Assembly: GCA_025360015.1 (NCBI GenBank)
Contig: JANYCZ010000059.1
Span: 124,001-188,000, forward strand
Length of the DNA stretch: 64,000 nt
From: Verrucomicrobiota bacterium
Lineage (GTDB): Bacteria; Verrucomicrobiota; Verrucomicrobiia; Verrucomicrobiales; Verrucomicrobiaceae
Reading direction: 5' to 3'
Within the stretch, counting starts at the first letter, position 1. Each line of letters begins with the position of its first letter. The notes under the pieces were generated by a model, which made no database searches, was not told the DNA's origin, and saw nothing but the letters and a program-made list of their open reading frames with translations. Below are positions 32,379 to 37,424 of the stretch, piece by piece. The position numbers and the translations under genes are program-made.

Positions 32379-33806
32379 TCAGGCTGGCAGAATCAGCATC
32401 GCCTTCGCCCCGGCCACACCCTCACGATTCGCCAGCTCCACACTGCCGCCGTGCAGTTGAGCCACTTCTTTGACAAAGCACAGGCCGAGGCCGGTGCTCT
32501 TCTTGCCGCTGTCAGGGCGCGGCAGCGAGTAGAAGCGCTCAAAGACCCGCGCGCAGGCGTAGTCCGGCATGCCTGGGCCGCAGTCTTCTACCTCAAACAC
32601 AATCTTCGCCTCAAAACAAAATCCCCGCACACTGATGGCGCTTCCCCTGGGCGCAAAGTCCAGCGCGTTTTGCAGCAAATTCCCCACCGCCAGCTCCAGC
32701 AGCCACGGATCTCCCTGCACCACCAGCGCCCCGGCCACCTCACGCTCCAGCCGCACCTCTTTGCCCAGAGCTACGAGCGCCAGATGATCCCACGCACGAT
32801 CAATGACACTCACGAGATCCACCGCTTCATTCGTTTCCAGCTTCTTCTGTTTTTCAATCGCCGCGAGGTGCAGCAGACGCTCCAGCAGATCTCGCAGCCG
32901 CCCGGCCTCAGCACGGATGTTTTGCAGAAATCGTGCCCGCTTCGGCTCCGGCACATCGCCCTGCAAAATCTCACCCGCCCCAAGAATCGCAGCCACGGGG
33001 CTCTTCAGCTCATGCGTGAGGCTCTGCACGTAGTGCTCCACATACTCGCGCCCTTCCAGCGCATCCCGCATGTCTTCGAGCGCTTTCGCCAGCGTCTTCA
33101 TCTGGTGCCCCGGCATGCGTGGTGAGGTGGATCTCTCGCCACGCCCAACCGCCAGCGCATGCTGCGTCAGCACTTCCAGCGGCCGCGTGGCCCACCGCGC
33201 CGCCAGGTAGATGCCCAGCAGCATCAGCACCACCGTGGTGAGGATGGACCACTTCAGCCACCGCTCAGTCTCCCACACAAATGCCAGCACCCCACGCTGC
33301 GGCTTCGCCACGCTCAGCATGCCAAGGGTCCGGCCCTCATGCCGGATGGGTGCGCCCACGTACATCACGATGGAAAGCGGATCGCGCTCACTGGCACGGG
33401 AAGAGCGCGCACCGTATTGCCCCATCAGCGTGAGGTTCACATCGCGATGATTGGAGATCTCTCCGGGCTTCTCAATGCCAGCGGAGTCAAACAGCACACG
33501 CCCCTGCGCATCCGTCACATAGACCTGCATGTCCACCCTGGTTTTGCTGAGGTTATAGATCTGCGCTTGCAGCTGCCGCTGCTGCGCGGCGCGCACCGCC
33601 CGCTCCACCGCCTGCGGCTTGAGCACGCCTCCTTCCGCATCTCCGCCGATGACTTCCGCGAGGATGTTCGCCACATCGACCATCGGCTCCTCGACGGCTT
33701 CAAAGTACTGCCTCTCCACGCGGTGAATGAGCTGGGTGGAGAGCACAAACAAACCCAGCGTCGCCACCACGGCGAATCCCAGTAAAAAGCGTGCGGTCAG
33801 GCTCAT
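32379..33806 (-). CDS. creC: CreC-like sensor histidine kinase
   Basis: DAQGRVLFDSAG, LTLMGQYGARSSR, VMYVGAPI, YVEHYVQSLTHELKSPVAAILGAGEIL, PDYACARVFERFYSLPRPDSGKKSTGLGLCFV. Confidence 0.9.
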   Translation of the reverse strand: MSLTARFLLGFAVVATLGLFVLSTQLIHRVERQYFEAVEEPMVDVANILAEVIGGDAEGGVLKPQAVERAVRAAQQRQLQAQIYNLSKTRVDMQVYVTDAQGRVLFDSAGIEKPGEISNHRDVNLTLMGQYGARSSRASERDPLSIVMYVGAPIRHEGRTLGMLSVAKPQRGVLAFVWETERWLKWSILTTVVLMLLGIYLAARWATRPLEVLTQHALAVGRGERSTSPRMPGHQMKTLAKALEDMRDALEGREYVEHYVQSLTHELKSPVAAILGAGEILQGDVPEPKRARFLQNIRAEAGRLRDLLERLLHLAAIEKQKKLETNEAVDLVSVIDRAWDHLALVALGKEVRLEREVAGALVVQGDPWLLELAVGNLLQNALDFAPRGSAISVRGFCFEAKIVFEVEDCGPGMPDYACARVFERFYSLPRPDSGKKSTGLGLCFVKEVAQLHGGSVELANREGVAGAKAMLILPA

Positions 33807-34501
33807 ACCTCGGGCCAGGTTTCAAGCAGTGAGTAGCCCATGCCGCGATGCGTGACGATGGGGTCCAGCCCCTCGCGCGCACCACGCATGCGCGCCCGCA
33901 GGGTTTTCACGTGCGTATCCACCGTGCGCTCCATCGAGGCATCCGGTTCTTCGGAAGCTTGGTCCATGAGCTGCTCACGGCTGAACACCCGCCCCGGATG
34001 CGCCGCAAAAGCCTTGAGCATGCGAAACTCATAGCGCGACAGATTCAAAGCCGTGCCGAAGTAGATGGCCTGGCAGCGCGTTTCATCAATGACGAGAGGA
34101 CCGGCAGCGTCCACAACAGGCGCAGGCAGCGGCACCGCCGAAACACGCCGCAGGATGGCTCGCACCCGCGCGACCAGCTCACGCGGGCTGAAGGGCTTCA
34201 GCACGTAGTCATCCCCCCCGATCTCCAGCCCCACCACGCGATCCACTTCGCTGGAGCGCGCAGTGAGAAAGAGGATCGGCAGCGACCGCGTCTTGCGGAT
34301 CGTTTTGCACACTTCAAAGCCCGTCATGTCCGGCAGGCCGACATCGAGAATGACAAGGCTGAAGTCCTGCGCCTCCAGCTGCTCCAGCGCCTTCCGCCCC
34401 GTGCCCGCGCTCGTCACGGCAAAGCCGTCGGCTTCGAGCGCATAAACCACGTTTTCGCAGATGGAAGGTTCGTCTTCGACGATGAGTATTTTGGCAGGCA
34501 T
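33803..34501 (-). CDS. creB: CreB-like OmpR-family response regulator
   Basis: MPAKILIVEDEPSICENVVYALEADGF...LVILDVGLPDMTGFEVCKTIRKTRSLPILFLTARSSEVDRVVGLEIGGDDYVLKPFSPRELVARVRAILRR; ATGA overlap with creC; start at internal ATG. Confidence 0.9.
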   Translation of the reverse strand: MPAKILIVEDEPSICENVVYALEADGFAVTSAGTGRKALEQLEAQDFSLVILDVGLPDMTGFEVCKTIRKTRSLPILFLTARSSEVDRVVGLEIGGDDYVLKPFSPRELVARVRAILRRVSAVPLPAPVVDAAGPLVIDETRCQAIYFGTALNLSRYEFRMLKAFAAHPGRVFSREQLMDQASEEPDASMERTVDTHVKTLRARMRGAREGLDPIVTHRGMGYSLLETWPEV

Positions 34502-34619
34502 TTCGACTGGGGTGAATGTTTGAACCGCTGATGTGATGATGACAAGACGCTTGTTCAGAATCTCAGACAAGGCAGCAGCACGGAGAATGGTTTCAGCGAC
34601 GTCCCTGTTCAAAACAGCC

Positions 34620-34657
34620 ATGAAACCTTGATGAAGCGAAGATGAAATGCATGTGAA
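34620..34657 (-). promoter_or_regulatory. Array of four TTCAY boxes, 11-bp period (cre-tag-like) upstream of creBC
   Basis: Minus strand TTCAC-atgcat-TTCAT-cttcgc-TTCAT-caaggt-TTCAT. Confidence 0.85.
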
Positions 34658-34663
34658 AAAGCA

Positions 34664-34693
34664 AAGTACTCCAGAGCTTTAGCTCGCTCTGGA
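34664..34693 (+). repeat. REP-like family 3
   Basis: aaagtactccagagctttagctcgctctgg. Confidence 0.75.
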
Positions 34694-34759
34694 GACCCCC
34701 CGCACGCCTTGCCTCAAATAAAATTCACCCATCACATCGCAGACCACAAACCACGTATT

Positions 34760-34779
34760 GTAGTACCGGCTTCAGCCGG
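34760..34779 (+). repeat. REP family 2
   Basis: gtagtaccggcttcagccgg. Confidence 0.8.
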
Positions 34780-34881
34780 AATCTGGACAGCGCGACCGAA
34801 CCCGTCACTAGAATGAGGAAAGCTTAAACGCAGAAAAATCAATCCAGTTCCTGCCTTCCTCATTCACATCAGTGCTTGGAC

Positions 34882-36066
34882 TCACGCCAGCCGTGGCGAA
34901 ACCGCCCCAAGCCTCTGACTCCAGTCCACCTTCGCCGTCAACGCCATCAAAACACCCAGCGTGACAATCCCACCCACCGTCAGCGTCAGTCCCGTCAGCC
35001 CTTTGAAGAAAAAGCTGTAGCTAAACAGCACCATATAAGCCGTCTGCGCCACGACCGCGACTCGGAACAAAAATTCTCCCGCAGCCGCGCGCAGATACCC
35101 ACACACCAGCATTAGCGATGCAGCAGCGGCAATCACAAAGCTCAGATGCACAGGCACCACATCCAGCATGTAGGAGAACAGCAGCGGAAAGGCAAAGAAA
35201 CCAGCGGCTAGGAAAAAGTAGTTCACCGGATGCAGCGACACACCGCGCGAAGTGGCCGTGATGATGATCACCACGAAGAACAGCAGCAGCGACAGCGGTG
35301 CATAGAAGGAGATCTGCGCGGCCACCGGTCCGGCATTGAGCTCACGCGGCATTTCCAGGCTGATGCCCGGCGCAGAAATGGCGTCTTCATATTTCCAGAT
35401 CAGCTCCATCCCTTTTTCAGTCGGCTTGCGATCCGTGGGTGAACTGATGGGAAAATTCACATCGGTAAAGTCGGTGTTAATGACGAGATTAAAATCGCGG
35501 ATGCGGCTGGCATCGGCAAAAGCATAGCCCCAAATATTCATACCACGACATTCGTAGCTGACGCTGATCGGAATGCTTTCCCCGGGCGCAAGCTGCACGC
35601 TGTCGGTGATCACCCCCTCCAGCGGCGCAGCCATCGAGCGGCGCGCAGAGGCCCCCTCGCCCAGAGTGAAGCGTATCTTGTCGAGCAGCGTGTTTCCAGC
35701 AGGCAGGGCAAAGCCAAGGTAGAGCGTCTGTGTGATGGCCGTCGTGTTGGTGAAAGTGTAGCCCCCTTCAAACTTCACGCTGTACGTGCGGTGCCAGAGC
35801 AGCCCCATTTTGACGGGCTGATAGGCGACCTGCACTTTGACATCACTCTTCGCTGGCTGAAGCACCAGCGTGGAACCGCTCGAGGCAGTGTAGCGTGCCA
35901 CAGGATGCTTCTGCACGAGCTGCGGCCCCCAGCGCCCGCTGACATCGTCTCCGGTTTGATAGCCCACCTGGGCGGTGCGCTGGGTGATGATGCCGCCAAG
36001 CAGCCACCAGGCGATGGTGGTGCAGACAAAGATAACAGCGATGGTGGTGAGATGAGTGAGTTTCAT
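34882..36066 (-). CDS. creD: CreD-like inner membrane protein
   Basis: Large extracytoplasmic region then HPVNYFFLAAGFFAFPLLFSYMLDVVPVHLSFVIAAAASLMLVCGYL...GLTLTVGGIVTLGVLMALTAKVDW, CreD-like C-terminal TM array. Confidence 0.8.
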   Translation of the reverse strand: MKLTHLTTIAVIFVCTTIAWWLLGGIITQRTAQVGYQTGDDVSGRWGPQLVQKHPVARYTASSGSTLVLQPAKSDVKVQVAYQPVKMGLLWHRTYSVKFEGGYTFTNTTAITQTLYLGFALPAGNTLLDKIRFTLGEGASARRSMAAPLEGVITDSVQLAPGESIPISVSYECRGMNIWGYAFADASRIRDFNLVINTDFTDVNFPISSPTDRKPTEKGMELIWKYEDAISAPGISLEMPRELNAGPVAAQISFYAPLSLLLFFVVIIITATSRGVSLHPVNYFFLAAGFFAFPLLFSYMLDVVPVHLSFVIAAAASLMLVCGYLRAAAGEFLFRVAVVAQTAYMVLFSYSFFFKGLTGLTLTVGGIVTLGVLMALTAKVDWSQRLGAVSPRLA

Positions 36067-36101
36067 GGCAATGGTGAGTGAGGTTGAGATGTGTGGGGAA
36101 A

Positions 36102-37244
36102 TCAGTTCGTGGTGCGCTTGCGATAAGTGATGCGAGCCTGCGGTTGTTGATCGCGGCAGAGAGATTTGCGCAGGTGCAGGCCCGGCGCGGTAGCCTTGTC
36201 GGTGATGGGATCAACGTTGCCGCTGAAGCTGAGGTCGTAAGTGGCGGGAAGCTGCACATTCCAGTCGATCTGCTTCGCAAACAGCGCCGTCTGCGGCAGC
36301 GCAAGATCGAGCTCCCCCTCGGCAATCTGCAACGGAGCAAGCACTGCGGTGAAGGAGAGCTTCACCTCCGACTCCGCTCCATCAGTGGCGGGGTCATCGA
36401 GTGGAATTTCCACGCGATTGGCTTCACCAAGTGTGGGACGCACAGGATCCCCATTCACATGACACTGCAGCAGCTTGGCAGCCTCAGGCAGTTGCAGCAC
36501 CAGTTTGGCCGGGTGATCGTGGCGCACGGTGATCACGCCCTCCGTCAGTGCAGAGCCATCACGAACGACCTGTGTGGTGTATAGAGCGGTGGAGACGATG
36601 GCGTCATCCGTGAGACTGGCGCTGGGCGGCTGCACCGCCTTGCGTGCATCCTCAAATGCAAAGGTCACATCGCCACCCGCCGCTGGCAGCGCGGCGAGTC
36701 CCGCGCTGCTATAAGTCTCGGTCGTGGTTCCGTGTTGCAGCCGCAGCACTTTGCCCTCTGGCAGCTCTTTGATCGCAATCGAGGCGATGGGTGATGCGGC
36801 AAGATGCAGCGTGGTCCCCTGCCCCGCCTTGGCGAGCGCGAAGGTCAGCTTCACCCTCTGCGCCCCCGCTTTGTCCGTGATGAGGCAGAGATGATCATCC
36901 GCGACGACAAGGCGCGCGTCCTTGGGTTCCACGGTCAGCACCCCCGTGCCTGCACCCGCAAGAGGAACCGCATGCCAGGCGCCATCAAAGTTCTCGACCT
37001 GCATCTCAGCCGTGATTGAAGAAGCCCGAGGGTCCAACTGATACAGCGCAGAGACCAGCGCCGCCGGAACCGGTGGCGTTGGCTTGATCGCTGGCGGCGG
37101 CGGCTCCTTCGGCAGCGTCGCCGCGACGAGGCGCTTCAACTCGCCATAAGTAATTCGGACCTCGCTCTCATCGAGCGTGGCACTGGTGATAGACTGTGCC
37201 AGCAAAGCGCTGGTCCCGAGCAGGAGTAGAATGAGTGGTTTCAT
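36102..37244 (-). CDS. Secreted protein of unknown function in creD operon
   Basis: Signal peptide MKPLILLLLGTSALLAQ; no recognised domain; 35 bp upstream of creD-like gene. Confidence 0.75.
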   Translation of the reverse strand: MKPLILLLLGTSALLAQSITSATLDESEVRITYGELKRLVAATLPKEPPPPAIKPTPPVPAALVSALYQLDPRASSITAEMQVENFDGAWHAVPLAGAGTGVLTVEPKDARLVVADDHLCLITDKAGAQRVKLTFALAKAGQGTTLHLAASPIASIAIKELPEGKVLRLQHGTTTETYSSAGLAALPAAGGDVTFAFEDARKAVQPPSASLTDDAIVSTALYTTQVVRDGSALTEGVITVRHDHPAKLVLQLPEAAKLLQCHVNGDPVRPTLGEANRVEIPLDDPATDGAESEVKLSFTAVLAPLQIAEGELDLALPQTALFAKQIDWNVQLPATYDLSFSGNVDPITDKATAPGLHLRKSLCRDQQPQARITYRKRTTN

Positions 37245-37267
37245 CGACACCCAAACTCAAAAGCAGC

Positions 37268-37305
37268 GTGAAACCTTGATGAACCCAGAATGAAATGACG
37301 GTGAA
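37268..37305 (-). promoter_or_regulatory. Array of four TTCAY boxes, 11-bp period (cre-tag-like) upstream of secreted-protein/creD operon
   Basis: Minus strand TTCAC-cgtcat-TTCAT-tctggg-TTCAT-caaggt-TTCAC. Confidence 0.85.
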
Positions 37306-37310
37306 AAAAT

Positions 37311-37340
37311 AAAGCCTCCAGAGCTTCAGTTCGTTCTGAA
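37311..37340 (+). repeat. REP-like family 3 (diverged)
   Basis: aaagcctccagagcttcagttcgttctgaa. Confidence 0.65.
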
Positions 37341-37404
37341 AACTCTCGCCCACCATGCCACAAACAAACACCCCCATCACATCGCAGACCACAAACCACG
37401 TAAT

Positions 37405-37424
37405 GTAGTACCGGCATCAGCCGG
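37405..37424 (+). repeat. REP family 2
   Basis: gtagtaccggcatcagccgg. Confidence 0.75.

Follow-up and report, generated by a model that had tools for sequence, protein, structure and literature searches.

The window, by which is meant the whole 64-kb stretch of DNA that was analyzed, contains a cre locus on its minus strand in the order sec, creD-like gene, creB and creC (Table 1). The creB and creC products share 51% and 41% identity, respectively, with their E. coli counterparts, and both exceed the cut-offs of the NCBIfam equivalog models, which upholds the identities proposed for them in an earlier sequence-only reading of this DNA. The recognition-helix (DNA-binding) region is nearly identical in the CreB of the window (TVDTHVKTLRARMR) and that of E. 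coli (TVDTHIKTLRAKLR). An in-frame ATG at 34621, which overlaps the last box of the creB-side array, would lengthen CreB by 40 residues to 272; comparison with relatives and homology to CreB favor 34501 as the probable start. A CreD-like membrane partner had also been proposed, and the protein does score above the gathering cut-off of Pfam PF06123 (36.5 against 23 bits). Because that match is confined to the C-terminal membrane part and the score is far under the cut-off of the NCBIfam CreD equivalog NF008712 (30.3 against 275 bits), the protein is called CreD-like here and is not assigned as a CreD equivalog. Among named records with this creD, the nearest bear the titles Prosthecobacter or Verrucomicrobiaceae. 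The sec product has a signal-peptide-like N-terminal stretch and no match in Pfam or NCBIfam. Its AlphaFold model (made with 17 relatives; mean pLDDT 83) has two beta-sandwich domains, for which the best Foldseek matches were ribophorin I/Ost1 (oligosaccharyltransferase) and the beta domains of M1 peptidases, with E down to 7.6e-11 and TM-scores below 0.4.

Table 1. Features of the cre locus, in window coordinates.
Feature	Position	Strand	Remarks
creC, sensor histidine kinase	32379..33806	-	NCBIfam NF008312, 518.1 bits (cut-off 356)
creB, OmpR/PhoB-family response regulator	33803..34501	-	NCBIfam NF008296, 314.3 bits (cut-off 273)
Possible relic of sec start and signal peptide (CTG AAA CCA TTC... 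ending TGA)	34555..34596	-	From the alignment of the two copies
Copy of the sec promoter segment (promoter cassette)	34585..34779	-	79% identical to 37233-37424; no other such pair genome-wide
Decayed -10 of the creB copy, GAACAG	34605..34610	-	Final T lost; GAGCTT in G001 and G028
Second four-box TTCAY array, creD-creB gap	34620..34657	-	Elsewhere in the genus in G001 and G028 only
creD-like, inner-membrane protein, 394 aa	34882..36066	-	Pfam CreD PF06123, E=3.4e-9
sec, secreted protein, 380 aa, first gene of the operon	36102..37244	-	Open reading frame; mRNA predicted to be leaderless or nearly so
Parental sec promoter segment	37233..37424	-	Paralogue of 34585-34779, about 190 bp
Predicted -10 hexamer GAGTTT (xAxxxT)	37253..37258	-	10-15 nt past the last sec box
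Four-box TTCAY array, predicted CreB operator of sec-creD	37268..37305	-	11-bp period; near-fixed distance in relatives

Two arrays of four TTCAY boxes with an exact 11-bp period are present, as the sequence-only reading had described. The array before sec (minus strand, 37305-37268) reads TTCAC-cgtcat-TTCAT-tctggg-TTCAT-caaggt-TTCAC, and that between creD and creB (minus strand, 34657-34620) reads TTCAC-atgcat-TTCAT-cttcgc-TTCAT-caaggt-TTCAT. The last box is separated from the start codon by 23 nt in the case of sec (ATG at 37244) and by 118 nt in the case of creB (ATG at 34501). A 3-box pattern gave four overlapping matches in the window, two per array, compared to none in 100 dinucleotide-preserving shuffles. 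The 6.6-Mb genome contained six matches to this pattern, four of them from the two arrays, and none to a reversed control pattern; the absence of shuffle matches and the small genomic total argue that the arrays did not arise by chance. A genome scan for phased boxes had been suggested, and it placed four-box arrays at the cre locus only, before sec-creD and before creB. The two isolated 3-box matches were left out of the core system: one (L208) lies 64 nt ahead of a gene whose secreted product carries an AP_endonuc_2 (xylose isomerase-like) domain, and no gene start is clear in the vicinity of the other, although similar sequences recur in G001 and G028. REP-like hairpins (CTCCAGAGC...GCTCTGGAG and CCGGCTGAAGCCGGTACTACA), dispersed in about 50 copies in the genome, are found upstream of both arrays (34669-34696 and 34759-34779; 37316-37343 and 37404-37424).

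The array before sec is conserved, and arrays co-occur with creC. Among all 143 related genomes, a 3-box array was found in 64 of the 67 that are creC-positive versus 21 of the 76 that are creC-negative (p=3.8e-18, Fisher's test, which ignores phylogeny), and several of those 21 matches are simple repeats. Within the genus, where the contrast is among close relatives, the figures were 25/25 and 5/23 (p=4.6e-9, same test). Verrucomicrobiae sec-creD loci with sufficient upstream DNA, some of which were judged from match coordinates only, have an array before sec, mostly 20-25 nt from the ATG. Where an exact array was not present, the locus was cut by a contig end or had a degenerate array (17-18 of 20 matches) at the expected place (G041, G062 and G097). 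Comparison with related intergenic regions thus showed the sec-creD array to be kept in relatives that retain creBCD, as the sequence-only reading would have it. When all fetched loci were scanned with the array anchored on the ATG, the background peaked at 8-9 matches, and a distinct cluster appeared at 17-20; these loci were partly picked by the pattern, and the scan accordingly speaks to position and not to frequency. Genus promoters aligned on the ATG had pairwise identities of 87% in the boxes, 70% in the spacers and 35% in the 29 nt upstream. Many arrays lie away from creD at varying distances, so the distance rule is not kept by all arrays. CreD-like proteins in loci of Acidobacteria and Eremiobacterota (L251-L264), with no creBC detected nearby, were also without TTCAY arrays.

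Spacing between the last box and the ATG peaks at 22-23 nt and, for sec in Verrucomicrobiae, is mostly 20-26 nt. A -10 signal was sought as xAxxxT, which fixes just the best-conserved A and T of a -10 hexamer, spaced by four positions. It occurred 10-16 nt past the last box in 14 of 21 non-redundant promoters, compared to an expectation of 1.6 (p=5e-5, the lowest value that the test can give); the offset had been spotted by eye before testing, and the p-value is therefore indicative. At offsets further from the last box, the motif was near expectation. Loci fetched later from outside Verrucomicrobiae (creD loci of the Lentisphaerae group, Spirochaetes and Hydrogenedentota) featured a TAnnnT hexamer (TACATT, TATCAT, TACGTT, TACCGT or TAGAAT) at an offset of 10-16 nt in 5 of 6 cases; in several of them, the ATG is at about 40 nt and is preceded by GGAGG. 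The hexamers of the genus match TATAAT poorly, and the ATG follows the predicted -10 by about 7-10 nt. Some promoters have purine-rich stretches ahead of the ATG that could be Shine-Dalgarno sequences. From the box-to--10 and box-to-ATG spacings, we infer class II activation by CreB, with the sec ATG of Verrucomicrobiae at or within a few nucleotides of the predicted transcription start and a leaderless or nearly leaderless sec-creD mRNA. Nothing specific on leaderless messages was found in the open-licence literature.

The array before creB has a different history. It lies in the copied promoter cassette, a duplication that the sequence-only reading had missed, and the spacers of the two arrays agree at 11 of 18 positions. 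The creD-creB gap is 42-121 bp long and array-free in most genus relatives; in close relatives it is about 90 bp, against which the cassette of the window is extra DNA. Among 20 other genus genomes with a readable gap, an array was present there in two (G001 and G028). The gaps that hold a second four-box array measure 383 bp (window), 714 bp (G001) and 618 bp (G028); that of G041 measures 547 bp and has no array. The window, G001 and G028 share a similar junction, and the apparent relic of the sec start is ATG in the latter two and CTG in the window. In G001 (L043), the cassette stands in tandem, the first copy having lost most of its array and the second being intact. Arrays near creB were also found elsewhere: in G125 and G142, the creB ATG is preceded at 22 nt by a 3-box array, and in G048, G058 and G064, arrays lie about 100 nt ahead of the creB open reading frame. 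A single clean clade of creB-array genomes was not recovered on the creD tree (weak support). These genomes may reflect one origin with losses or recurrent spread; the similar junction favors one event. In the creD-creB gap of relatives (L039/L041-L046), there is an inverted repeat, AACCGCTGAT...ATCAGCGGTT, which might act as an attenuator or as a processing hairpin. Of this repeat, the window has the 3' arm alone (34522-34532, minus strand), the promoter copy having replaced the 5' arm.

Most genus relatives appear to have one sec-creD-creB-creC operon, whose only array precedes sec. Because the creB array duplicates the sec promoter and is mostly absent in relatives with equal gene order, it is, by this comparison, derived: a late, lineage-limited duplication, the predicted autoregulation through the operon being older. 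The sequence-only reading had proposed an operator shared by two transcription units and an autoregulated CreBC. The first part of this proposal stands for sec-creD, where the array is conserved, but the creB array is a partly decayed copy of restricted occurrence in the genus. Autoregulation as such is retained; it is better explained by an ancestral sec-creD-creB-creC operon with one array than by a separate, late array before creB.

How much the second array contributes is the point on which the strongest alternative turns. The arrays may be CreB sites while the creB-side copy of the window is a non-functional relic, with creBC expressed by read-through from sec or from another promoter. 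This alternative bears on the creB array alone and does not conflict with the main explanation of the sec array; we regard it as a substantial possibility, albeit short of an even chance. The short, array-free creD-creB gaps of most genus relatives point toward it, as do the losses of the final T of the -10 and of the ancestral ATG in the window copy and the already decayed array in the tandem of G001. Against it, the window, G001 and G028 each have a full set of four intact boxes (20/20), despite the divergence of the window's spacers; G001 and G028 retain an intact xAxxxT in the creB-side copy; and separate creB arrays occur in other genera.

The preferred reading, which we consider likely, is that the arrays are operators of phosphorylated CreB in class II geometry. 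CreB is named as the regulator on the strength of the equivalog scores, the near-identity of its DNA-binding helix to that of E. coli CreB, the published tag and the co-occurrence with creC. Binding, activation, transcription as an operon, the start site and leaderless translation are predictions from sequence. CreB would line up head-to-tail along the four helically phased boxes, as PhoB does on tandem pho boxes. The last box would stand in for the -35 element, and CreB would recruit RNA polymerase to the weak -10 hexamer 10-16 nt further on. With the sec ATG 20-26 nt past the last box (23 nt in the window), the sec-creD message would be leaderless or nearly so. One promoter would drive sec-creD-creB-creC in most genus relatives, with positive autoregulation as the outcome. 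Copying of the promoter segment into the creD-creB gap, in the lineage of the window and in two others, would then have given creBC its own CreB array; the partly decayed copy in the window may be weak.

It is improbable that the arrays bind a different regulator of the OmpR/PhoB family or serve as repressor sites. Tandem 11-bp direct repeats are common across that family, CreB binding here is predicted from sequence, and some creC-negative genomes (21/76) have a 3-box match, several of these being simple repeats. However, the array co-occurs with creC and is linked to creD across phyla, the box sequence is that of the published CreB tag, the recognition helix is nearly that of E. coli CreB, and the -10 geometry is typical of activators. 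An origin by chance or as part of a dispersed repeat with no regulatory role, which the hairpins beside both arrays and the duplication of one segment might suggest, was rejected as having a negligible probability, given the shuffles (0/100), the six genome matches, the dispersed copies that carry hairpins alone and no boxes, and the hairpin-free arrays conserved at an equal place in other genera.

With the arrays taken as CreB operators, similar arrays suggest a wider regulon. They were found before genes for secreted VIT/vWA proteins (G059, G058, G053 and G074), a VanZ-like protein (G053) and a 187-residue membrane protein with no assigned name (G049 and G059); a conserved 3-box array also precedes the ATG of an ECF-type sigma factor gene by 26 nt in G011 and G029 (L213 and L204). 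The VIT and vWA secreted proteins of L189, L197, L219 and L224 have three- to five-box arrays, and two have weak PEP-CTERM-like tails. Two tandem copies of the creD-like gene are present in L102 (G049) and L100 (G059), where the adjoining creB-like match spans the receiver domain alone. We tentatively propose, with slightly less confidence than doubt, a cross-phylum CreB promoter code in which three to five phased boxes stand for the -35 element, the -10 has a fixed offset and, in Verrucomicrobiae, the ATG is at the transcription start. This code would control the conserved pairing of CreD with a secreted, ribophorin-I-like protein; in some genera, it would reach a broader envelope regulon (VIT/vWA, VanZ-like, ECF sigma) not known for CreBC elsewhere. 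The CreBC regulator is poorly understood, and its targets in E. coli have "proved very elusive" (PMC3962086). An operator that is long, positionally rigid and kept across many genera would allow candidate CreB targets to be recognized by sequence inspection only. It links CreD with a secreted protein that is itself conserved, opens a CreB regulon beyond the Proteobacteria to testing, and, through its fixed spacing, predicts leaderless messages from an activator-dependent promoter.

The locus resembles E. coli creABCD in that homologues of creB, creC and creD are linked. It differs in that no creA is in the cluster, creD precedes creBC, the secreted gene sec is added, and the similarity to CreD is significant over the C-terminal membrane part alone. 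In the tandem pho boxes of PhoB (pstS-type, class II), 11-bp direct repeats are positioned such that the last box is at the -35 place and the -10 follows about 10 nt later. The period, the replacement of the -35 element by the last box and the box-to--10 spacing are as at pstS; the box is TGTCA there and TTCAY here, and the regulator here is predicted to be CreB. The closest likeness is to the cre/blr tag of E. coli CreB, TTCAC-N6-TTCAC (PMC4689548, PMC3660660), for which binding by, or dependence on, CreB/BlrA before creD has been reported in E. coli, Aeromonas (BlrA), Pseudomonas and Stenotrophomonas (PMC4689548, PMC3660660, PMC3962086). No report of CreB arrays in Verrucomicrobia was found in the open-licence literature. 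The boxes match this tag, as had been recognized from the sequence, and share with it a direct repeat with N6 upstream of creD, present as four TTCAY copies before sec-creD in the window. The known version has two boxes, whereas three to five are found here; its first gene is creD, whereas here it is sec; and strict TTCAC in all boxes fails in the window, where TTCAT and TTCAC are mixed. At E. coli creD, two boxes are 61 nt from the ATG, with CATAGT 11-16 nt past a following TTCAA, and the distance is about 65 nt in Stenotrophomonas; the 20-26 nt found here would leave no room for a Shine-Dalgarno leader. The arrays of Prosthecobacter and related bacteria look like a long (three- to four-box) variant of the known cre/blr tag and a strongly conserved on-switch of the CreBC envelope-signalling system.
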